Source: Marilutibacter aestuarii (GTDB taxonomy: Bacteria; Pseudomonadota; Gammaproteobacteria; Xanthomonadales; Xanthomonadaceae). From it: 47,289 nt of DNA. Both the position numbers and the translations under genes were made by a program. Under the pieces are notes generated by a model. It made no database searches, had not been told where the DNA came from, and worked only from the letters and a program-made list of their open reading frames with translations. Below, piece by piece: positions 8,205 to 18,112 of the stretch; the stretch's first letter is position 1, and each line of letters begins with the position of its first letter. Location of the stretch: contig NZ_VICE01000073.1 in the NCBI RefSeq assembly GCF_006546775.1, positions 1 to 47,289 on the forward strand, read 5' to 3'.

Positions 8205-8998
8205 CAGCCGACCAGGCCGTCCACCGGGCTGGATGCCGAGGCGTAGCGCTTGCGCGGGATGCGGCCGGCCTTGAACGCGGCGCGACCGGCTTCCACGGCC
8301 AGCTTCATCGCGTGGGCCATGAGCAGCGGGTCGCGGGCGCCGGCGATGGCGGTGTTCATGAGCACGCCGTCGCAACCCAGTTCCATCGCGATGGCGGCAT
8401 CCGATGCGGTGCCGACGCCGGCATCGACGATGATCGGGACGCTCGCGTTCTCGACGATCTCCATCAGGTTGTAGCGGTTCTGGACCCCCAGGCCGGAGCC
8501 GATCGGCGCCGCCAGCGGCATCACCGCCACGCAGCCGATGGCCTCCAGGCGCTTGGCCAGGATGGGATCGTCGGAGGTATAGACCATGACCTGGAAGCCC
8601 TCGGCCACCAGGGTCTCCGCCGCCTGCAGGGTGGCGACGACGTCCGGGAACAGCGTCTTCTGGTCGCCGAGGACCTCGAGCTTCACCAGGGCGTGCCCGT
8701 CGAGCAGTTCGCGGGCCAGCCGGCAGGTCCGGACGGCCTCCTCGGCGGTATAGCAGCCGGCGGTGTTGGGCAGCAGCGTGTAGCGGTCGGGCGGCAGGAC
8801 GTCGAGCAGGTTCGGTTCACCCGGCGCCTGGCCGATGTTCGTACGCCGGATGGCGACGGTGACGATCTCGGCGGCGGCGGCCTCGGTGGCCAGCCGGGTT
8901 TCTTCCAGGTCCTTGAACTTGCCGGTGCCGGTGAGCAGGCGGGAGCCGTAGCTTTTCCCGGCGATGACGAGCGGATCGATGCGGTGTGGGGCGTTCAT
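8204..8998 (-). CDS. thiG: Thiazole synthase ThiG
   Basis: 264-residue TIM-barrel enzyme that makes the thiazole phosphate moiety of thiamine from deoxyxylulose-5-phosphate, dehydroglycine and sulfur delivered by ThiS-thiocarboxylate. The N-terminus [17 protein letters not shown], the Schiff-base lysine in [25 protein letters not shown] and [27 protein letters not shown] are all present. It overlaps trmB downstream. Its partner thiS is not next to it but about 7 kb upstream on the same strand, beyond the lipid operon. No THI-box (TPP riboswitch) was seen immediately upstream. Confidence 0.97.
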
Positions 8999-9055
8999 CC
9001 GCCCATTATCGCACCACCCGGCCGCGCGGGGGCGCCGCGCGGCGGTCCGATGGTG

Positions 9056-9604
9056 TTACTCGGGCCAGCGCTGCGGGACCCGGCGCAGGTCCTCGAGCGA
9101 ATACCCCATCTCCCGCAGGCGTTGCAGGTGGGCCTGGTAGTCGGCTTCGGGGATGCTCGGCGTGCGCGCCATGATCCAGGCATGGTCGCGCTTGCTGCGC
9201 CCGATGATCGTCTGGGTATAGCCGGCGTCGACGTAGGTGATCACGTACTCGGCCCGGATGGGCCACACGAACTGCATCGTCCACACGGCGTCGCCGGTGC
9301 CGGGCACGACGCGGCCGATGGGGTGCATGGCCGATTCCTCGGCGTCGAAGCCGCCCTTGCGCTGCGTGTAGGTGGTGCGGATCCGGCCCTCGTCGTCGAG
9401 TTCGTAACGCTCGACCGCGTTGTAGGCGTCGCGCTCGACGAAGGTCGGGATGTGCGCGATGACGTACCAGGTCCCCATGAAGCGCGGGAGCTCGACCGAG
9501 TCCACTGGCGTGATGGTCGGTGCCTGGTGGGCGCAGCCGGCGAGCATCGCCGCGCACAGCAAGGCGAGGATGCGCGGACGCAGTACCGCGGGGAACGCGC
9601 TCAT
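9056..9604 (-). CDS. blc: Outer-membrane lipocalin lipoprotein (Blc type)
   Basis: 182 residues with a lipoprotein signal ending LAGC (lipidated Cys24) and the lipocalin signature GTWYVIAHIP at about 44-53. Strand motifs follow (AVERYELDDEGRIRTTYTQRKGG, YVITYVDAGYTQTIIGRS, HAWIMARTPSI). Blc-type lipocalins bind fatty acids or lysophospholipids in the cell envelope. The start ATG overlaps the stop of the preceding CFA-like gene (ATGA), so it is the last gene of the seven-gene lipid operon and probably handles its acyl products. The gap of 57 bases to thiG holds a GC hairpin without a T-tract. Confidence 0.93.
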   Translation of the reverse strand: MSAFPAVLRPRILALLCAAMLAGCAHQAPTITPVDSVELPRFMGTWYVIAHIPTFVERDAYNAVERYELDDEGRIRTTYTQRKGGFDAEESAMHPIGRVVPGTGDAVWTMQFVWPIRAEYVITYVDAGYTQTIIGRSKRDHAWIMARTPSIPEADYQAHLQRLREMGYSLEDLRRVPQRWPE

Positions 9605-10704
9605 CGGCCGGTACCCGCGTGGGCGCCGCCGGGGCGGCTGAAGAGGAAGTGGCCCACGCCCCACTCGCGGCCGCCGTCGTAGTCGAACATCTCCGCGCAG
9701 GCCATCCAGAACATGCGCCAGCGTTGCACCCAGAGCGTGGCCTGCGCCTCGCCGTGCACCCGTGCCAGCACCTCCTTTACGGCATCGCCATGGCGGTCCT
9801 GCCGCGACAGCCACTGGTTCGCCGTGCGGGCATAGTGGCGCCCGTCCAGCAGCCAGCGGCGCTCCAGCGACAGGTGGTCCTGGAACCAGGCCAGGGTATC
9901 GGCCGACGGCATCAGTCCGCCGGTGAAGAAATGGCGGCCCATCCAGTTGTCCTCGCCCTCGGTCTCGAACGGATACATCAGCGTGCGATTCAGGAACACG
10001 TGCACGAAGAGCTTGCCGCCCGGTCGCAGCCAGCCGGCGATGCGCTCCATCAGGACGGCGTAGTTGCGCACGTGCTCGAACATCTCGACCGACACGCAGC
10101 GGTCGTAGGCCGCCGCGTCGAGCTCCAGCACGTTGACGTCCTCGGTGATGACCCGCACGTGGTCGAAGCCGCGCTGGTGGCACTGGGCGCGGATGTGCTC
10201 GCGCTGCGCCGCCGAATTGGACACCGCGGTGATCCGGGCGTTGGGGTAGCGCTCGGCCATCCACAGCGTCAGCGAGCCCCAGCCGCAGCCCAGCTCCAGG
10301 ATGTCCTGGCCGTCCACCAGTCCGGCCCGCTCGCCGTAGAGCGCGAGCATCGCCTCCTCGGCTTCGTCCAGGCTTTCGTTGCCCTCCGGGTAGTAGCAGG
10401 CCGAGTACTTCAGCCGGTTGCCCAGGCAGAGCCTGAAGAACTCCGGCGGCAGCTCGTAGTGCTGGGCGTTGGCGGCGTCGGCATGGATGGCCACCGGGCT
10501 GCCGCGGAGCATGGCCAGGCGTGCCTCGAACCGGCGTGCTTCGCCGGCCCAGCCCCCGGCGCGCTCTTCGTGCAGGCGCTGTCGGCACAGGCGCCGGATG
10601 CCGTGCCGGAGCAGCGTGTCGGGGATCCAGCCGCGTTCGGCCAGTCCGATCAGGCCGGGCCCGGGGCGCTCGTGATGGAGGGTGGACTCAATCCGCGCGT
10701 TCAT
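9601..10704 (-). CDS. CFA-synthase-like SAM methyltransferase (second paralogue)
   Basis: 367 residues of the Mycolic_PCS/COG2230 family. Motifs: HYELPPEFFRLCLGNRLKYSACYYPEG (acceptor-lipid region), SAM site ILELGCGWGS (about 135-144), VEMFEHV (acidic active-site loop) and FVHVFLNR. In classical synthases the acceptor segment reads YSCAY; here it is YSACYY, shifting the Cys by one. It is a paralogue of the gene at 11506 and shorter. It probably methylates an unsaturated acyl chain or a related lipid. Start ATG at 10704 lies within the end of the DUF1295 gene (17-base overlap), consistent with coupling; an in-frame ATG farther upstream was rejected. Confidence 0.87.
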   Translation of the reverse strand: MNARIESTLHHERPGPGLIGLAERGWIPDTLLRHGIRRLCRQRLHEERAGGWAGEARRFEARLAMLRGSPVAIHADAANAQHYELPPEFFRLCLGNRLKYSACYYPEGNESLDEAEEAMLALYGERAGLVDGQDILELGCGWGSLTLWMAERYPNARITAVSNSAAQREHIRAQCHQRGFDHVRVITEDVNVLELDAAAYDRCVSVEMFEHVRNYAVLMERIAGWLRPGGKLFVHVFLNRTLMYPFETEGEDNWMGRHFFTGGLMPSADTLAWFQDHLSLERRWLLDGRHYARTANQWLSRQDRHGDAVKEVLARVHGEAQATLWVQRWRMFWMACAEMFDYDGGREWGVGHFLFSRPGGAHAGTGR

Positions 10705-11509
10705 GATGACCTCGCTGGGACGTGGGGGAGGAAGGCGAGCGCGGGAACCACGGAAACAGCATCGGCGTGGTTTGCTGGTAGCGGCGATAGTCCTCGCCAC
10801 GGCTGCGCAAGGCCTGGGCCTCGGTGAAGGGGATGCCGCTGATCCAGCGCAGGAACGCGTACATCACGAGGGGGCCGGCCCAGGCCAGCCATGCGACGGG
10901 AGAACCGACGGCCAGGCACACGTAGGCGAACCAGTGCAGCCACTCGAAGAAGTAGTTCGGATGGCGCGAGTAGCGCCAGAGCCCGCTCCGGCAGACGCGG
11001 CCGCGGTTGCCCGGATCGGCGCGGAAGCGCGCCAGTTGACGGTCCGCGACCGCTTCGCCCGCCACGGCAAGCCCCCAGGTCGCGATGGCCGCCACGGTCC
11101 AGACCCCGAAGCCGTCGGCCGGGTTGGCGGCCACGGCCAGGAAGGGCAGCGCGAACAGCACCACCAGCAGGGCCTGTGCCTGGAAGAACAGGAAGAACAA
11201 GCCCTGGTGGCCGTTCCAGTGCCGGCGCAGGTAGGCGTAGCGACCGTCTTCGTCTTCGTCCCGGACGCGCTGCCAGAGGTGGCGCGCCAGGCGGAATCCC
11301 CACAGCCCGCCGAGCATGGCCAGCAGTACCCGTGGCAGGAGGGCGCCGGTGCCCAGCGCGGCGAGGACCACCGCCGAGGCACCAACGCCCCCGGCCCAGA
11401 CCACGTCGACGATGCCCGTGTTGGCGTGGCGCCGCTGCCAGGTCCAGGCCACGGCCATCGCCAGCGCGGCCAGGACCCACACCACCAGGAGATCGGAGAA
11501 GGTGCTCAC
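10688..11509 (-). CDS. DUF1295 integral membrane protein (steroid 5-alpha-reductase-like fold)
   Basis: 273 residues with about six or seven hydrophobic helices and the C-terminal signature of the DUF1295/ICMT/steroid reductase group: GLWRYSRHPNYFFEWLHWFAY, and later EDYRRYQQTTPMLFPW. These folds act on membrane-embedded lipid substrates with SAM or NADPH. The GTG start at 11509 overlaps the CFA-synthase stop (GTGA), matching the ATGA style of the other junctions in this operon. A reductase or isomerase step on the modified acyl chain is plausible but not shown by sequence. Confidence 0.85.
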   Translation of the reverse strand: MSTFSDLLVVWVLAALAMAVAWTWQRRHANTGIVDVVWAGGVGASAVVLAALGTGALLPRVLLAMLGGLWGFRLARHLWQRVRDEDEDGRYAYLRRHWNGHQGLFFLFFQAQALLVVLFALPFLAVAANPADGFGVWTVAAIATWGLAVAGEAVADRQLARFRADPGNRGRVCRSGLWRYSRHPNYFFEWLHWFAYVCLAVGSPVAWLAWAGPLVMYAFLRWISGIPFTEAQALRSRGEDYRRYQQTTPMLFPWFPRSPSSPTSQRGHHERAD

Positions 11510-12768
11510 GCCGCCGCCCCAACGACCATGCCGCGCCGGTCCGGGCGGCCCATGACCAGGTGGGCAACGCCGGTGGCGCGCTCCAGGAAGCCGCCCTCGC
11601 AATACGCCAGGTAGAAGGTCCACATGCGGATGAAGCGCTCGTCGAAGCCCTGCGCCCGGACTTCGGGCAGCCGGGCCAGGAAGCGCTGGCGCCACGCACG
11701 CAGGGTCAGCGCGTAGGAGGGGCCGAAGTCCTCCATGCGCAGCAGTTGCAGGTCGGTGTTGCGTGCCTTGGCATCGAGCATGGCGCTGATCGACGGGATG
11801 AAGCTGCCGGGGAATACGAAGCGCTTGATGAAGTCCACCGAGTCGCGGGCCTGCGCATAGCGGTGGTCCTCGATGGTGATGGCCTGCAGCACGGCCCGTC
11901 CGCCCGGCGCCAGCAGGCGCCCGAGGGTGGCGAAGTAGGTGTCCAGGTAGTCCGCGCCGACGGCCTCGATCATCTCGATCGAGACCAGCTTGTCGTAGCT
12001 GCCCTGGAGGTCGCGGTAATCGTCCAGCAACAGGGTGACGCGGTCCTGTAGTCCCGCCGCGGCCACGCGCTCGCTGGCCAGCGCATGCTGCTCGCGGGAG
12101 ATCGTCGTCGTGGTGACGTGGCACCCGTGGTGGCGCGCGGCGTGCAGGGCGAAGCCGCCCCAGCCCGTGCCGATCTCCACCACCCGGTCGCCGGGCCGGA
12201 GCTCGAGGTGGGCGCAGATCGCCTCCAGCTTGCGCCGCGACGCAGCCTCGAGCGGCTCGTCCCCGGATTCGAACAGGGCCGACGAGTACATCAGGTCGGG
12301 GGAGAGGAACAGGCCGAAGAATTCGTTGCCGAGGTCGTAGTGGGCGGTGATGTTGCGCCGGCTGCCCTCGCGCGTGTTGCGCTGCAGTGCGTGCCAGGCG
12401 CGCAGCATCCAGCCGCCCAGGCGGGCCAGCCCGCCCTCCATGCCGTCGAGCAGGTCGCGATTGCGCACCAGCAGGCGAACCAGCGCGACCAGGTCGCTGC
12501 ATTCCCAGTGCCCCTCGATGTAGGCCTCGCCGGCCCCCACGCTGCCGCGCGCGGCGACCGCCCGGTAGAACGCCGGATCGTTGATCCGGACCGTGGCTTC
12601 CAGGCCATCGGGCGCGGCACCGCCGAAGCGCGAGGTGCCCAGGCCATCGACGAGCGTCAGGCCGCCATGGTCCAGTGTCGCGAACATCGCGAGGAGGCGT
12701 TCGCGCAGGAAGCGGTCCAGCGTCGAATAGCGGGCGGGGTCGTCGATCCGGGTTACGGCTTCGGTCAT
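11506..12768 (-). CDS. Cyclopropane-fatty-acyl-phospholipid synthase homologue
   Basis: 420 residues aligning along the whole length of CFA synthases: AHYDLGNEFF (about 142-151), SAM motif VVEIGTGWGGFALHA (196-210), TTTTISREQHALA, DDYRDLQGSYDKLVSIEMIEAVG, FPGSFIPS and the C-terminal FIRMWTFYLAYCEGGF. Two positions that line the bicarbonate/active site in E. coli Cfa look changed: the YSCAY segment reads YSSAL (Cys to Ser) and the LLHTIG segment reads VLQAIT (His to Gln). Similar homologues beside DUF1365 and FAD oxidoreductase genes are tied to methylated rather than cyclopropanated acyl chains. ATG at 12768 overlaps the DUF1365 stop (ATGA). Confidence 0.9.
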   Translation of the reverse strand: MTEAVTRIDDPARYSTLDRFLRERLLAMFATLDHGGLTLVDGLGTSRFGGAAPDGLEATVRINDPAFYRAVAARGSVGAGEAYIEGHWECSDLVALVRLLVRNRDLLDGMEGGLARLGGWMLRAWHALQRNTREGSRRNITAHYDLGNEFFGLFLSPDLMYSSALFESGDEPLEAASRRKLEAICAHLELRPGDRVVEIGTGWGGFALHAARHHGCHVTTTTISREQHALASERVAAAGLQDRVTLLLDDYRDLQGSYDKLVSIEMIEAVGADYLDTYFATLGRLLAPGGRAVLQAITIEDHRYAQARDSVDFIKRFVFPGSFIPSISAMLDAKARNTDLQLLRMEDFGPSYALTLRAWRQRFLARLPEVRAQGFDERFIRMWTFYLAYCEGGFLERATGVAHLVMGRPDRRGMVVGAAA

Positions 12769-13544
12769 CGGGTCTCTCCGGCGTGGCGCGGATGGTCGTG
12801 TACGGGCGTGCGCTTGAGCCACAGGCGCAGGGCCTGCCAGTGGATCGCGCCGACGACCTGAGCGGTCATCAGCGGGTAGCGCCAGAGCAGGCGGGCCAGC
12901 GCGCGGCCGTCGAGCGGACGGCGCTTGAGCGACAGCGTCGCGTCGAATTCGCGGTCCTCGCCCTCGCGCGCCTGCATGTGCACGCCGAGGACCTCGCCCG
13001 GCACGGTGAAGCGCCAGCGATAACGGCGCGCCATCGCCATGAAGGGCGATACATGGAAGCGCTTGTCGAAGTCCCATTCCAGGACGTTGCCGCGTCGCTG
13101 CGCATCGCCGACGTCGAGGACATAGGCATGGCGTTCCTGCCAGGGCGTGTTGGTGATCTCCGCCAGGACCGCGTCCAGCGACACGCCGTCGGCCCGGTAG
13201 CAGTAGTAGAAGCTGACCGGGTTGAATACGTGGCCGAAGTAGCGCGGATGGGTCAACAGGCGGACCGGGCCGGTCGGCGCGTGGCCGATGGCCGCGCACA
13301 CGCGGCTGCGCACGCTCTCGGCCAGCGGCATGCCGTCGTCGCCGCCGAGGTAGTCGCGGCGCCGGAACTCGGCGACGTTGCGCCGGTCCACCGACCACAG
13401 CCAGTGCCGGTCGAACACGCGGTCGACCTCGTCCAGGTCCAGCCACAGCTGGCCCAGGCCATGCGAGAAGGCATGCAGGGTGGGGCGGTGTCGCCGGTGG
13501 TGGACCCGCCCTTCGTAGACCGCGCTGGCCAGTCCGCCGCTCAT
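12765..13544 (-). CDS. DUF1365 family protein
   Basis: 259 residues. The family signature is clear: YEGRVHHRRHRPTLHAFSHGLGQLWLDLDE at the N-terminus, LLTHPRYFGHVFNPVSFYYCY, EITNTPWQERHAYVLD, and the FDKRFHVSPFMAM segment. The biochemical role is unestablished to my knowledge; it nearly always lies beside COG2907 FAD oxidoreductases and CFA-like methyltransferases, so it is presumed to be a lipid-modification enzyme or chaperone. Both ends overlap neighbouring genes by four bases, which fixes the start at 13544. Confidence 0.92.
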   Translation of the reverse strand: MSGGLASAVYEGRVHHRRHRPTLHAFSHGLGQLWLDLDEVDRVFDRHWLWSVDRRNVAEFRRRDYLGGDDGMPLAESVRSRVCAAIGHAPTGPVRLLTHPRYFGHVFNPVSFYYCYRADGVSLDAVLAEITNTPWQERHAYVLDVGDAQRRGNVLEWDFDKRFHVSPFMAMARRYRWRFTVPGEVLGVHMQAREGEDREFDATLSLKRRPLDGRALARLLWRYPLMTAQVVGAIHWQALRLWLKRTPVHDHPRHAGETR

Positions 13545-14830
13545 GCGGCCTCGCCCTGGCGTTCGGCCCTGCCGTCGGCCTGGCCGGGCGCGACGCCGAA
13601 GGCCGAGGCCACCTCGTGCGCGCTGCGCATGCCGTCCTCGTGGAAGCCCCAGCCCCAGTAGGCGCCGGCGAACCAGGTATGGCGGCGGCCCTGGATCTCG
13701 CCGCGGCGGGCCCGCGCCGCGACCGCGGCATGGTCGTGCAGCGGATGGCGGTACTTCATCCGCCTGAGCACCTTGGCCTCGTCGATCGCGGCGTTCCGGT
13801 TGAGGGTCACCAGGAACGGGTGCCGCGACTCGATGCCCTGCAGCAGGTTCATGTGGTAGGTGACCGTGCACGGGGCGCCTTCGCGGGCCGGCACGTGTGC
13901 GTTCCAGGCGGCCCAGGCCCTGGGGTCGGCGGGCAGCAGGCGGGTGTCGCCATGCAGGACGGCATCGTTGGCCTGGTAGCGGATCGCGCCCAGGATCTCG
14001 CGTTCGTCGGCGCTGGCGTCACGCAGCAGGCGGAGTGCATCGTCGCTGTGGCAGGCCAGCACGACCTGGTCGAAGCGCTCGCGCCCCCCGGCATGGCGGA
14101 TCTCGACGCCGGCGCGGTCGCGGCGCACGGACTCCACCGGGCAGGCGAGGCGTTCGTCGACCTGCCAGCGCGCCTGCATGGCGCGGATGTAGGTCGAGGA
14201 TCCGCCTTCCACCACGCGCCATTGCGGTCGACCCGACACCTGCAGCATCTGGTGGTTCTGCAGGAAGCGCACCAGGAAGCGCATCGGGAACTCGAGGATC
14301 TTCCTCGGCGGGGACGACCACAGTGCAGAGGCCATCGGCACCAGGTGCTCGTCGCGGAAAGCGGTACCGTAGCGATGGCGCACCAGGTACTCGCCCAGCG
14401 TCGGGTCGTCGCCGGGCGACTGCAGCAGCGCCGGCGCCTCGCGGTTGAAGCGCAGGATGTCGGCGACCATGCGCAGGAAGCGCGGCGAGGCCAGGTTGCG
14501 GCGCTGGCAGAACAGGCCATCGAGCGTGCTGGCGTTGTATTCGATGCCGCTGGCCTCGCTGTGCACCGAGAAGCTCATCGTGGTGGGCCGCGACGCCACG
14601 TCCAGGGTGTCGAACAGGGCATCGAGCAGCGGATAGTTCGACCGGTTGAAGACGATGAAGCCGGTATCGACCGCGTGTCGTTCGCCATCGCGCTCGATCT
14701 CGTGGGTATGGGTGTGGCCGCCCAGGCGCGCCTGCGATTCGAACAGGACGACCTCGTGGCGTCGCGACAGCCACCAGGCACTGGCGAGGCCGGCGATGCC
14801 CGCGCCGACGACGGCGATGCGCTGGCTCAT
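13541..14830 (-). CDS. FAD/NAD(P)-dependent amine-oxidase-like oxidoreductase (COG2907)
   Basis: 429 residues. An N-terminal Rossmann FAD site, IAVVGAGIAGLASAWWLSRR, is followed by VVLFESQARLGGHTHTH and DTGFIVFNRSNYP, typical of the flavin amine oxidase/phytoene-desaturase-like superfamily. The C-terminus has the second FAD contact WFAGAYWGWGFHEDGM. In Rhodobacter and actinobacteria, related flavoproteins encoded with CFA homologues act on methylated acyl intermediates (desaturation or reduction of methylene groups). This makes it the probable redox partner of the methyltransferase at 11506. Four-base overlaps at both ends. Confidence 0.9.
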   Translation of the reverse strand: MSQRIAVVGAGIAGLASAWWLSRRHEVVLFESQARLGGHTHTHEIERDGERHAVDTGFIVFNRSNYPLLDALFDTLDVASRPTTMSFSVHSEASGIEYNASTLDGLFCQRRNLASPRFLRMVADILRFNREAPALLQSPGDDPTLGEYLVRHRYGTAFRDEHLVPMASALWSSPPRKILEFPMRFLVRFLQNHQMLQVSGRPQWRVVEGGSSTYIRAMQARWQVDERLACPVESVRRDRAGVEIRHAGGRERFDQVVLACHSDDALRLLRDASADEREILGAIRYQANDAVLHGDTRLLPADPRAWAAWNAHVPAREGAPCTVTYHMNLLQGIESRHPFLVTLNRNAAIDEAKVLRRMKYRHPLHDHAAVAARARRGEIQGRRHTWFAGAYWGWGFHEDGMRSAHEVASAFGVAPGQADGRAERQGEAA

Positions 14831-15786
14831 CGTCGTGCCCTTTCCGCGACCCAGGCCGGGACGGGCTTGAGACCGTGCACCACGCCGATCGCCGCCAATG
14901 CGCGCAGGCCGTACCAGGTCAGGTCGATCTCCCACCAGCGGAAGCCCTGGCGTGCCGAGCCGGGGAAGAAGTGGTGGTTGTTGTGCCAGCCCTCGCCGAA
15001 GGTCAGCAGCGCCAGCCAGGCGTTGTTGCGGCTGTCGTCGCGGGTGTCGAAGCGGCGGCTGCCATAGCGATGGGCGAGCGAGTTGATGGTGACGGTCGCA
15101 TGGAAGAGCACGACGGTGGAGACGAAGAAGCCCCACACCAGCATCTGGGGACCGTTGGTGCCCCATTGCGGCACGACCCGTTCAAGCAGCGCGCCCAGGC
15201 CGTAGACGGCGGCGGCCAGCCCCACCGGCACGAGCAGGTCGAAGCGGTCGAGCAAGCGCAGCTCCGGGTAGCGGGCCAGGTCAGGGATGCGCGCCCAGTC
15301 GGTGTGGAAGCCCCGCGGACTCAGGAACCAGCCGACGTGGCTGTGGACGAAACCACGGATGCGCGGCGAATGCGGGTCCTGATCGGTGTCCGCGTGCCGG
15401 TGGTGGTTGCGGTGGTGGGCGGCCCACCACAGGGGGCCGCGCTGCACGCACGATGCCCCGACCAGCGCGCCCAGGAACTGGACGGCACGCGAGGCGCCGA
15501 AGGTACGGTGCGAGAAATAGCGATGGTAGAAAGCGGTGAGCGCGAACATGCGCACGGCGTACAGCGCGACCGCCACGAGGATCGCGACGACAGACACGCC
15601 GACCCAGGGCACCGCCAGGCACGCCAGGTGCATGCCGATGAAGGGCGTCGCGCGCAGCCAGTCGACGCGATCGCCATCCGGTTCGTAACCCTGCGCGTCC
15701 GCGGTGTCGAACCAGCGCAGTATCGATCGCCATCGATGCGTTCGACCGGGGCTGGCTTCGCGCGGCTCGGCGCGGGTATTCGGCAT
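14827..15786 (-). CDS. Acyl-CoA/acyl-lipid delta-9-type fatty acid desaturase
   Basis: 319 residues with the three histidine boxes of membrane di-iron desaturases: HRYFSH (88-93), HHRNHH (124-129) and HNNHH (268-272), plus four hydrophobic spans. It introduces a cis double bond into a saturated acyl chain and so would make the olefinic substrate for the CFA-like methyltransferases downstream. It is the first gene of the operon. Start MPNTRAEP at 15786 has GGAG six bases upstream; an in-frame ATG 48 bases further up lacks this. Confidence 0.93.
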   Translation of the reverse strand: MPNTRAEPREASPGRTHRWRSILRWFDTADAQGYEPDGDRVDWLRATPFIGMHLACLAVPWVGVSVVAILVAVALYAVRMFALTAFYHRYFSHRTFGASRAVQFLGALVGASCVQRGPLWWAAHHRNHHRHADTDQDPHSPRIRGFVHSHVGWFLSPRGFHTDWARIPDLARYPELRLLDRFDLLVPVGLAAAVYGLGALLERVVPQWGTNGPQMLVWGFFVSTVVLFHATVTINSLAHRYGSRRFDTRDDSRNNAWLALLTFGEGWHNNHHFFPGSARQGFRWWEIDLTWYGLRALAAIGVVHGLKPVPAWVAERARR

Positions 15787-15794
15787 GGGGCGCT

Positions 15795-15814
15795 CCTGTC
15801 TTCGTCTGGACAGG
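15795..15814 (-). promoter_or_regulatory. Inverted repeat overlapping the desaturase ribosome binding site
   Basis: CCTGTC and GACAGG arms (6 bp) separated by 8 bases; on the minus strand the second arm ends in the GG of the GGAG Shine-Dalgarno sequence of the desaturase gene. It could be an RBS-sequestering hairpin or an operator. Confidence 0.35.
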
Positions 15815-15894
15815 AATACGCAATCCCGCGTCAAGCGGATGCATGCGAGCGGGACAACGCCTTGCGGGCGGCGCGCTCGCCGGCACGTGCGGCC

Positions 15895-16095
15895 TCAGCC
15901 GCCGCCGAGGGCGTGCACGATCTCCACCCGGTCGCCCTCGGCCAGCGGGTGCCCGGCATGCCGGCCGCGCGGCACGATCTCGCCATTGACCTCGACCGCC
16001 ACGCGCCGTTCCGCCAGGCCCTCGCTCGCGAGCAGCATCGAGACGGTGGTGCCGGCGGGGAGGTCGCGGGCCTCGCCATTGAGTTGGATGTCCAT
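15895..16095 (-). CDS. thiS: Sulfur carrier protein ThiS
   Basis: 66-residue ubiquitin-like protein starting MDIQLNGEARDLPAG and ending ALGGG, with the C-terminal di-glycine that is adenylated and thiocarboxylated to carry sulfur to ThiG. VEVNGEIVPRGRH and LAEGDRVEIVHALGGG are typical of ThiS. It lies 108 bases upstream of the lipid operon, with thiG on the other side of that operon, all on the same strand. The ATG at 16095 gives the normal family length. Confidence 0.95.
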   Translation of the reverse strand: MDIQLNGEARDLPAGTTVSMLLASEGLAERRVAVEVNGEIVPRGRHAGHPLAEGDRVEIVHALGGG

Positions 16096-16279
16096 GCCGC
16101 CATTGTCCCGCCATGCGCGGCGGCTGGGAAGTCGGCGCGCGTCCCCCATGACGCACTGCGGCTTGAGTCGCCGCCCCGGGGCGTGCTTGGATGCGCCATC
16201 CGCTAGCGTATGTCCTGCCTGCGGACAATCATGCACCGCGTGCAAGCGCGCACGACATCCCAGGAAACCAGGAACTCCG

Positions 16280-18112
16280 ATGAAAGCACCCGTTCGTACC
16301 GTGTTGGCCGCCGCCCTGGCGATCGCCGCCGCGCCCGTCGCGGCACAGACCTATTCGCAAACCGTCTTCTTCGGCGACAGCCTGACCGACTCCGGCCACT
16401 TCCGCCCGGCGCTGGTCAGCCAGGCGGGCCCGTCGGCGGCGATCCTCGGCAAGTTCACCACCAACCCCGGCCTGGTCTGGTCCGAGTACCTGGCCGACTT
16501 CTACGGCGACGAGGCCTTCAGCGCCAACCAGGGCGGCGACAACTACGCCGTGGGCGGCGCGCGCGTGGGTACGGACACGACCGGCGCACTCGGCCCGATC
16601 CCCTCGTTGGCGACACAGGTCGGCAACTACCTGGCCAGCACGGGCGGCCGTGCCGATCCGAACGCGTTGTACACGGTCTGGGGCGGCGCCAACGACCTGT
16701 TCGCCGTGACCGGCGGCGCACCGGCCGCGCCGACCATCGGCGCCGCGGTGACGTCGCAGATCGGCATCGTCGGCGCGTTGCAGGGCGCGGGTGCGCGCTA
16801 CATCCTCGTGCCGACCGTGCCGGACCTGGGCCGTACGCCGGGCTTCATCGCGCAGGGCCCGCTGGCCCAGGCGCAGGGCACCCAGTTGTCCACGGCCTAC
16901 AACGACGCCCTGTTCGGCGGCCTCGCGGCATCGGGCCTGCGCGTGATTCCCCTCGACACGTTCCATCTGCTCCAGGAAATCACCGACAATCCCGCGCCCT
17001 ACGGCTTCACCAACGTCACCGGGACCGCCTGCCAGCCGCAGATCACCGCGCAGTCGCTGACGTGCAACCCGGGCACCTACGTCAGCCCCGACGCGGCGGA
17101 CACGTATGCCTTTGCCGACGGCGTGCATCCGTCCTCGAAAGCGCACAACATCCTCGCCGACTACGCGATCTCCGTGCTCGAGGCGCCGCGCATGGTCGCC
17201 CTGATGCCGTATACGCAGGAAATCAGTGGCCTGGCGCGCACCGAGCGCGTCGCCGCGCAGGTCGAGGGGCGTCCGGACAGCGAGGGCATGCGCGCCTGGG
17301 CCGACGTGCGCGGCGACTACCAGAAATTCGACGAGGACGCCGGGCTGATGGTCGACGCCGAGGGCATCGGCCCGGCGCTGACCGCCGGCATCGACTGGCG
17401 CAGCGGCAACCTGGTCTACGGCGGCTTCCTCGGCTACGGCAGCCAGACCATGGACTTCGGCCGCCGCTTCGGCGAGTTCAGCCACGAGGACACCAGCCTG
17501 GGTGCCTACCTGGGCTGGCGTGGCGAACGCGCCTGGGTGACGGGCCAGGTCGGGTACAACTGGTCGAATTACGACCTCGACCGCAAGGTCCAGCTCGGCG
17601 CGGTCACCCGCGAGCATTCGGCCTCGGCGGACGGCACCAGCCTGGTCGTGGCGGTGGAAGGCGGCTATGCGTTCGAGCACGGCACGCTGCGCCATGGCCC
17701 GGTGGCATCGCTGGTGTCGCAGCGCATCGACATCGACGAGCTGGCCGAGAACGATCCGACCCTGTCGACCTCGATGGCGTTCCCGGAACAGAACCATGAC
17801 TCGCTGGTCGGCAGCCTGGGCTGGCAGGTCGAGATCGAGGCCAGCGAGGCCTTCCGTCCCTATGCCCGGGTCAGCTGGGAGCACGAGTTCGAGGACGAGG
17901 AGGGCGAGGCCTTCGCGCGACTGCAGTCGCTGCCGAGCGCGGCGCCGTTCGCCGTGCCCGGCCTGGAGATCGACGGCGACCACGGCTCGGTCCTGCTCGG
18001 CGCTCGCGCCGGCCTCTTCGGGCTGGAGGCGGATTTCGGCATTTCGGGCGCCTTCGCGCGCGAAGGTACCGACAACCTGTCGGCCTTCCTGAGCCTGGGC
18101 AAGGCCTTCTGA
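16280..18112 (+). CDS. GDSL-esterase autotransporter (EstA type)
   Basis: 610 residues: signal peptide (MKAPVRTVLAAALAIAAAPVAAQ), a GDSL lipase/esterase passenger (about 25-310) and a C-terminal 12-strand autotransporter barrel (about 340-610) ending in the aromatic Phe needed for outer-membrane assembly (LSLGKAF). Catalytic motifs are visible: FFGDSLTDSGHF (Ser34), GGARVG, WGGANDLF and DGVHPSSKAH (Asp/His). EstA-type proteins display a carboxylesterase on the cell surface, affecting rhamnolipid production, motility and biofilm in Pseudomonas. It is divergent from thiS. Confidence 0.95.
   Translation: MKAPVRTVLAAALAIAAAPVAAQTYSQTVFFGDSLTDSGHFRPALVSQAGPSAAILGKFTTNPGLVWSEYLADFYGDEAFSANQGGDNYAVGGARVGTDTTGALGPIPSLATQVGNYLASTGGRADPNALYTVWGGANDLFAVTGGAPAAPTIGAAVTSQIGIVGALQGAGARYILVPTVPDLGRTPGFIAQGPLAQAQGTQLSTAYNDALFGGLAASGLRVIPLDTFHLLQEITDNPAPYGFTNVTGTACQPQITAQSLTCNPGTYVSPDAADTYAFADGVHPSSKAHNILADYAISVLEAPRMVALMPYTQEISGLARTERVAAQVEGRPDSEGMRAWADVRGDYQKFDEDAGLMVDAEGIGPALTAGIDWRSGNLVYGGFLGYGSQTMDFGRRFGEFSHEDTSLGAYLGWRGERAWVTGQVGYNWSNYDLDRKVQLGAVTREHSASADGTSLVVAVEGGYAFEHGTLRHGPVASLVSQRIDIDELAENDPTLSTSMAFPEQNHDSLVGSLGWQVEIEASEAFRPYARVSWEHEFEDEEGEAFARLQSLPSAAPFAVPGLEIDGDHGSVLLGARAGLFGLEADFGISGAFAREGTDNLSAFLSLGKAF

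Follow-up and report, generated by a model that had tools for sequence, protein, structure and literature searches.

The window analysed here, the whole stretch of 47,289 nucleotides at positions 1 to 47,289 of contig NZ_VICE01000073.1 of Marilutibacter aestuarii, carries on its minus strand a compact run of seven genes (15786-9056), including two homologues of cyclopropane fatty acid (CFA) synthase. Every junction in this run overlaps, leaving zero gaps: five of the six are 4-base ATGA or GTGA overlaps, and that between the DUF1295 gene and the second CFA homologue spans 17 bases. The initial annotation, which had given the coordinates and order of these genes and had described 4-base overlaps at most junctions, proved correct on these points when the minus strand was read and the proteins were compared with Pfam, where all seven score above the cut-off. 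The genes are likely to form a self-contained operon for furan fatty acids (FuFAs), probably of the dimethyl form, expressed from a promoter of the type used by an extracytoplasmic function (ECF) sigma factor with the anti-sigma factor ChrR. The operon and its predicted promoter are laid out as follows.

15842-15817, minus strand: predicted ECF-type promoter, GCATCC-N16-CGTA, an exact match 30 bases before the desaturase ATG.
15786-14827, minus strand: desaturase of 319 amino acids, the first operon gene (PF00487 FA_desaturase, 7e-26).
14830-13541, minus strand: UfaD-like flavin adenine dinucleotide (FAD) oxidoreductase of the COG2907 type, 429 amino acids (PF01593 Amino_oxidase, 1e-19).
13544-12765, minus strand: UfaO-like DUF1365 protein of 259 amino acids (PF07103, 2e-85, 286.7 bits with a cut-off of 25).
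12768-11506, minus strand: UfaM-like S-adenosylmethionine (SAM) methylase, the first CFA homologue, 420 amino acids (PF02353 CMAS, 2e-77).
11509-10688, minus strand: DUF1295 integral membrane protein of 273 amino acids with a GTG start (PF06966, 4e-68).
10704-9601, minus strand: FufM-like SAM methylase, the second CFA homologue, 367 amino acids (CMAS, 3e-37).
9604-9056, minus strand: lipocalin of 182 amino acids, the last operon gene (PF08212 Lipocalin_2, 2e-37).

Three of these proteins appear to correspond to published furan enzymes. UfaM methylates cis-vaccenate within phospholipid, UfaD, a nicotinamide adenine dinucleotide (NAD)/FAD-binding protein, produces a methyl-diene, and UfaO, which contains DUF1365, forms the monomethyl furan using O2, the three being sufficient for monomethyl FuFA in Rhodobacter sphaeroides (PMC7380195; this and the other published accounts are cited here from excerpts). 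The comparison genomes came from the phototrophs, defined by photosynthetic reaction centre genes, in the alphaproteobacterial family of genome G182 (36 of 295 searched); ten were chosen, eight from genus g306, which is Rhodopseudomonas by inference, and two from the Bradyrhizobium-like g173. In all ten, the window FAD oxidoreductase shows 42-44% identity to the gene at the UfaD position, the DUF1365 protein 36-40% to the UfaO orthologue and the first CFA homologue 41-43% to UfaM, and the three counterparts form a contiguous UfaD-UfaO-UfaM trio apart from a DUF1295-FufM pair. By this correspondence, the UfaD-like protein is predicted to be a desaturase acting on a methyl-branched chain, the DUF1365 protein an O2-dependent oxygenase that forms the furan ring, and the UfaM-like protein the maker of a methyl-branched trans-ene. 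The desaturase, in which three His boxes were recognised by eye, is predicted to supply UfaM with the cis double bond on which it acts. A genome search found a single DUF1365 gene, and structure-profile searches found no recognisable solved relative of its product. The initial annotation had left the roles of DUF1365 and DUF1295 open; that of DUF1365 is not open, because UfaO contains this domain.

The second CFA homologue is predicted to be the furan methylase FufM, adding a second ring methyl, rather than another enzyme for cyclopropane or methyl-ene formation. FufM of Rhodopseudomonas palustris (RPA0924) makes the dimethyl furan and is 26% identical to R. sphaeroides UfaM (PMC7380195), while its identity to Arabidopsis AT4G33110 is 38% (PMC10940516). 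Each of the ten Rhodopseudomonas/Bradyrhizobium-like genomes contains one strong match to the window protein (45-47%, E 5.5e-90 or better), the remaining matches being at E 1e-20 or weaker, and the window protein is 45% identical to the Rhodopseudomonas-like FufM-type gene as against 24% to the window UfaM. In all ten, the FufM-type gene lies directly downstream of a DUF1295 gene, and its separation from the trio matches what has been published for RPA0924 and RPA2571-2569. The two G696 loci map to 1.04 and 2.88 Mb, near the positions estimated from the locus numbers of strain CGA009. By the same positional logic, RPA0923 should be a DUF1295 gene; an RPA0923 deletion strain is listed in PMC7380195, in whose main text no phenotype for it was found.

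The distribution of these genes also joins them. In a family sample of 149 genomes, from which 77 neighbourhoods were fetched besides the window, the second CFA homologue has a close orthologue in 78 genomes (E 7e-138 or better, the next match being at 1e-28) and DUF1365 likewise occurs in 78. Both are present in 77 genomes and neither in 70, with one genome carrying each alone: G063 has FufM without DUF1365, and G142, which is 71% complete, has DUF1365 without FufM. The Fisher p of 1e-40 for this pattern is a guide only, since the genomes are related. The order desaturase-UfaD-UfaO-UfaM-FufM is kept on one strand in 71 of the 77 relatives, so the operon is more than a chance assembly; of the six exceptions, L074, L086, L094, L099 and L100 are cut by a contig end, and L113 has the second CFA homologue alone. 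In many relatives, a DUF2878 gene stands between UfaM and DUF1295 (65 of 77 loci have a DUF2878 match), whereas the window operon has none. Across the phylum, a FufM-like gene was found in 37 of 397 genomes (E 1e-40). Among 80 kept loci of named genomes, 68 carry UfaD, UfaO, UfaM, DUF1295 and FufM, the closest being that of Lysobacter spongiae (93%); Stenotrophomonas, Luteimonas, Rhodanobacter and Dyella are represented, and so are Achromobacter and Bordetella. In records from Achromobacter, Bordetella and Comamonas (L203, L207, L208, L218, L223, L232, L248, L253, L186), FufM is 67-70% identical to that of the window; horizontal transfer is suggested, as these operon genes are as window-like as those of Rhodanobacteraceae. 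A record titled Bacillus subtilis SK7B5 (L212) contains the complete operon at Xanthomonadaceae-like identity and is probably a contaminated or mislabelled assembly.

The operon would be transcribed from an ECF promoter that answers to a pair of sigma and anti-sigma factors of the RpoE-ChrR type, which this genome encodes on another contig. The initial annotation had proposed looking for such a pair elsewhere in the genome, and one was found on contig C23, where an ECF sigma gene is followed by a ChrR gene (TIGR02451, 184.5 bits, cut-off 124.5) and preceded by GCATCC-N16-CGTA with the same spacing as at the operon. The zinc ligands of R. sphaeroides ChrR are H6, H31, C35, C38, H141, H143, E147 and H177 (PMC6852236); the M. 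aestuarii protein has H6, H31, C35 and C38 together with H149, H151, E155 and H185, and by residue correspondence it possesses both zinc sites. ECF11-type promoters of Pseudomonas syringae read TGATCC-N16-CGTA (PMC5507510). The match to the ECF11 sigma-E/ChrR type draws on the ChrR zinc sites and on the minus-10 element and spacing of the promoter. Among 72 upstream regions (family operons and the window), a relaxed form of the motif occurs with spacing 16 in 45 and spacing 17 in six, and at spacings of 10-15 or 18-21 in none. If an RpoE-ChrR-type pair recognises this promoter, singlet oxygen or related oxidants probably induce the operon. Upstream of the sigma-ChrR genes, two opposed exact copies of the motif stand about 50 bases apart (L115/L116, G000:C23:55893-55993), which suggests a divergent promoter pair. 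Five of the ten loci with the motif in the genome were inspected, and besides that of the sigma gene, one site looked promoter-like: the exact copy at G000:C39:6507-6532 (L119), 57 bases before a gene with a signal peptide whose product appears outer-membrane-like by eye and which is a possible further member of the regulon. The sequence TCCTGTC-N8-GACAGGA, an inverted repeat with 7-base arms about the desaturase ribosome-binding site, was considered as an operator and set aside, its left arm not being kept in L. spongiae (L036). Scans of 8950-16100 for sigma-70 promoters and terminators found none.

From these genes we infer a route, a dimethyl product and an induction that can be outlined as follows. 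The route would act on chains already within membrane phospholipid, where the desaturase would introduce a cis double bond, UfaM would add a methyl group from SAM and shift the double bond, and UfaD would add a second, conjugated double bond. UfaO would then insert one oxygen from O2 and close the furan ring, and FufM would add the second ring methyl. The DUF1295 protein may be a membrane reductase associated with FufM, either at that step or on what it produces; the lipocalin would be an envelope protein alongside the furan pathway. The proposal that the genes serve one pathway, running from a double bond through methylation and oxidation to a furan-type chain under a singlet-oxygen-type regulator, had been made when the genes were first described; it gains support from the orthology of UfaD, UfaO, UfaM and FufM, and further from their all-or-none co-occurrence and the ECF-type promoter common to the operon and the sigma-ChrR pair. 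The additional suggestion that the lipocalin moves the product to the envelope found no direct support.

For DUF1295, no paper on its function was found, as judged by titles. A profile of 48 DUF1295 sequences matches two solved 3-oxo-5-alpha-steroid 4-dehydrogenases, 7c83 (1.4e-6) and 7bw1 (SRD5A2, 5e-5), and also AtTam46 (8xku, 6e-5) and the isoprenylcysteine methyltransferase 4a2n (1.1e-4). Residues D156, N185, E189 and W193 of the window protein align with SRD5A2 D164, N193, E197 and W201 (chain numbering less four), which we take to have roles with nicotinamide adenine dinucleotide phosphate (NADPH); they are kept in 47, 47, 45 and 47 of the 48 sequences, and at the position of SRD5A2 N160, 47 of 48 have E. 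The AlphaFold2 model is mainly helical, with a pLDDT (predicted local distance difference test) of 95.8. An NADPH-dependent membrane reductase of the steroid 5-alpha-reductase-like superfamily is favoured by these similarities; alternatively, the match to 4a2n may indicate a methyltransferase. FufM was enough to yield dimethyl FuFA in R. sphaeroides, so DUF1295 would probably act after FufM or on an oxidised product.

DUF1295 is often found with FufM. The two genes adjoin in 71 of the 77 family relatives, and by the Pfam model (E 1e-10), DUF1295 occurs in 79 of the 149 family genomes, 77 of them shared with FufM, an overlap that flatters the link; G063 has FufM without DUF1295, and G013 and G072 the reverse. 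In four operon genomes (G023, G061, G115, G137), DUF1295 lies away from FufM, elsewhere in the genome. The G023 copy is operon-like, at 54% identity to the window, and the tree places it closest to that of G072. The idea, drawn from these four genomes, that DUF1295 is kept elsewhere when it is out of the operon was rejected, because the copies of three of them (G061, G115 and G137) are divergent and of the G013 branch. An operon-type DUF1295 is present in at most 74 of the 78 FufM genomes, a figure that counts G014, whose copy beside DUF1365 on another contig was left out of the alignment. Outside the family, DUF1295 is present in 21 of 32 FufM loci and not in the other 11, and DUF1295-FufM is often found without UfaD-UfaO-UfaM (for example L126, L129, L130, L138, L146 and L147), which makes it a common module of its own. 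In G112 and G086 (L263, L264), a second DUF2878-DUF1295 pair lies outside the operon with a lipocalin match nearby, its DUF1295 being 52-53% identical to that of the window, a possible second partial cluster.

Three other explanations can be set against a ChrR-type FuFA operon, two concerning its chemistry. Both CFA homologues match the CMAS family, and the two proteins of the orthologous Stenotrophomonas maltophilia cluster are named CFA synthases in PMC11832516, so the operon might make cyclopropane or simple methyl-branched acyl chains. The active site argues otherwise. In E. coli Cfa, residues C139, E239 and H266 have an active-site role in binding bicarbonate. When aligned with that enzyme, the window UfaM-like protein keeps E239 and has S for C139, A for H240 and Q for H266; S or A, A and Q stand at these three positions in nine of nine aligned orthologues and in two of two Rhodopseudomonas-like UfaM proteins. 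With the active-site-region residues C139, H240 and H266 replaced, plain cyclopropane synthesis by this protein is unlikely, and it was set aside for the operon on these grounds; the loss would suit methylation without cyclopropane closure. The genome has four CMAS matches. Two are the window proteins, a third is a weak match on contig C139 (30 bits), and the fourth is a canonical Cfa on contig C48 that retains residues C139, E239, H240 and H266. Furthermore, the second homologue is closest to FufM and the coclaurine N-methyltransferases, and DUF1365 in the family sample is confined to FufM genomes, save the one that is 71% complete. Cyclopropane or simply branched chains are therefore improbable. 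Hardly better placed is an operon for the monomethyl furan whose second CFA homologue has a target other than the furan, acting as an N-methyltransferase towards a small molecule or the head group of a lipid. This protein has plant N-methyltransferases as its best matches in the Protein Data Bank (PDB), first among them the coclaurine enzyme 6gkv (2e-73), and it retains Cfa E239 and H266; yet it is 45-47% identical to the Rhodopseudomonas-like gene that corresponds to RPA0924/FufM by position and by distance from UfaM, and it is all-or-none with DUF1365 across the family.

The third concerns control alone: the operon may be real and not under ChrR in this genome, answering to another ECF factor (for example one linked to RskA) or being expressed constitutively. 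We regard this as unlikely, while giving it more weight than the two chemical alternatives. ChrR was found in 21 of 78 operon genomes at E 1e-15, leaving 57 without it, so the majority of operons must answer to a different regulator or to none, and the motif persists in 23 of 27 operons of ChrR-less genomes with another ECF gene upstream. In L. spongiae (G019, L036), an ECF-RskA pair lies directly upstream of the operon, yet the genome also contains ChrR. On the other side, ChrR is absent from all 71 genomes outside the 78, and the window's genome has the ChrR pair, whose sigma gene is preceded by the motif at the same spacing. Where the genome has ChrR, 19 of 20 operons carry the motif; of operons with no ECF gene visible upstream, 2 of 23 carry it. 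It is also found upstream of 30 of 40 ChrR-linked sigma genes as against 11 of 70 other ECF matches, although the 138 upstream regions behind these two counts include some genomes twice and the family-only counts are preferred. In some relatives (for example L036:2232-3817 and L058:1765-3227), an ECF sigma gene without ChrR precedes the operon, with an RskA-type anti-sigma factor in the two that were checked. The same lipid operon may thus be wired to two kinds of anti-sigma sensor, with GCATCC-N16-CGTA mostly kept.

Several results weigh against a dimethyl FuFA operon under ChrR control. The sigma-ChrR operon of S. maltophilia hardly altered tolerance to rose bengal or tert-butyl hydroperoxide (PMC11832516). 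The motif is not enriched genome-wide, with 10 matches as against 20 for a reversed control pattern, and the attempt to define a regulon from the motif alone failed for this reason. Orthology was measured on Rhodopseudomonas-like genomes in place of the named CGA009 proteins, and the identities to enzymes of the characterised type are moderate (36-47%), so the order of steps and the substrate of FufM could differ. Additionally, the sole DUF1295 of G061, G115 and G137 is divergent (32-33% identity to the window) and shares a branch with that of G013, a genome lacking FufM; at least three operon genomes can dispense with DUF1295.

The closest published counterpart of the operon is a nine-gene cluster of S. 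maltophilia that shares the order desaturase, FAD oxidoreductase, cytosolic hypothetical protein (at the DUF1365 position), CfaS2, inner-membrane proteins, CfaS1 and lipocalin. Its two inner-membrane proteins stand at the DUF2878 and DUF1295 positions, whereas the window is without the former; it begins with an extra periplasmic protein not in the window operon, and it adjoins its sigma-ChrR genes, whereas those of M. aestuarii lie on another contig. The cluster (smlt2375-2367) is strongly dependent on sigma-Ec/ChrR, rising 165- to 697-fold in a chrR mutant and reverting in the chrR/rpoEc double mutant, in an RNA sequencing experiment done once with a check of some genes by quantitative reverse transcription PCR; mutants in sigma-ChrR-ChrA hardly changed in singlet oxygen tolerance (PMC11832516). 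The excerpts of that report interpret the cluster as cyclopropane or membrane modification without lipid analysis, and the paper contains no word beginning "furan". In the wider literature, no paper was found that joins furan fatty acids with Stenotrophomonas, nor any lipid chemistry for this operon type. In the protein before the desaturase in ChrR-divergent loci, at the smlt2375 position (L067:2545-3309), no Pfam or NCBIfam match was found at E 1e-3.

Other systems divide the same components differently. R. sphaeroides has the same three core families, ufaM (RSP2144) and ufaD-ufaO (RSP1091-1090), in its sigma-E/ChrR regulon, with ufaM apart from ufaD-ufaO where the window has one operon; among the genes next to ufaD-ufaO, RSP1087 encodes a short-chain dehydrogenase and RSP1088 a lipoprotein, and dimethyl FuFA was obtained there using R. 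palustris fufM. R. palustris has all four enzymes in two loci, ufaD-ufaO-ufaM (RPA2571-2569) and fufM (RPA0924). In Rhodopseudomonas-like genomes, DUF1295 lies directly upstream of the fufM-type gene, as the two also adjoin in the window, but the short stretches examined contain no desaturase or lipocalin match, unlike the window operon. The light-inducible ufaM cluster of Pseudomonas (LitR/PplR) combines FAD oxidoreductase and CFA/UfaM-like genes under a LitR-type light regulator, and a FAD-DUF1365-cfa-DUF2878 cluster of Aeromonas brings together the FAD oxidoreductase, CFA/UfaM-like, DUF1365 and DUF2878 genes; both include short-chain dehydrogenase genes, and in the excerpts no FufM or DUF1295 gene is named for either. 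Among eukaryotes, unlike the bacterial operon of the window, Chlamydomonas requires SAK1 for the induction by singlet oxygen of its genes for CFA1, a coclaurine N-methyltransferase-like CFA2, DUF1365 and DUF1295 (PMC4067076), and Arabidopsis has UFAMD1, UFAO1 and FUFM1, homologues of UfaM/UfaD, UfaO and FufM that are located on lipid droplets; the excerpts name no products for either.

The operon is therefore most likely a version of a known pathway gathered into one operon, with a regulator of a known kind, and its orthologous cluster was published without a furan assignment. For that cluster, described as one for "membrane lipid modification" in Stenotrophomonas and its relatives, this would amount to a specific prediction, dimethyl furan fatty acids, extending over Lysobacteraceae and some other bacteria. 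Furan fatty acids are membrane fats that soak up reactive oxygen, and a single operon with all the enzymes would be a convenient means of making such antioxidants in a laboratory host. The comparison also singles out DUF1295 as a frequent partner of FufM that is common to the singlet-oxygen-induced genes of a green alga, and it raises the question of whether furan scavengers are consumed or recycled. Singlet oxygen converts a furan acyl chain to an ene-dione. A speculative and very improbable answer is that DUF1295 reduces the ene-dione double bond with NADPH to a 1,4-dione, making furan protection renewable. If true, a toxic electrophile would be removed, or loss of water would reclose the furan in a catalytic cycle of membrane scavenging. 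The idea is consistent with the superfamily of DUF1295, with the pairing of DUF1295 and FufM throughout the phylum, and with the need for SAK1 when singlet oxygen induces the Chlamydomonas gene alongside CFA and DUF1365 genes; such a cycle would be accessory, since three operon genomes are without an operon-type DUF1295.

The lipocalin, with an LAGC lipobox recognised by eye, is a probable lipoprotein. It matches the NCBIfam Blc subfamily at 5e-17 and 62 bits, under the model cut-off of 267, and a lipocalin match occurs in 35 of 77 relatives (tblastn, E 1e-3). The operon is flanked, on the same minus strand, by a small ThiS-like gene (end 15895) and a thiG-like gene (8998-8204), both named by eye. 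In L. spongiae, a thiG match likewise lies downstream, and the upstream neighbour is the ECF-RskA pair where the window has the ThiS-like gene, so the left border of the operon varies among near relatives. Divergently upstream, a GDSL-type esterase-like open reading frame on the plus strand (15704-18112) resembles an autotransporter by eye, and the listed GTG probably lies upstream of its real start.

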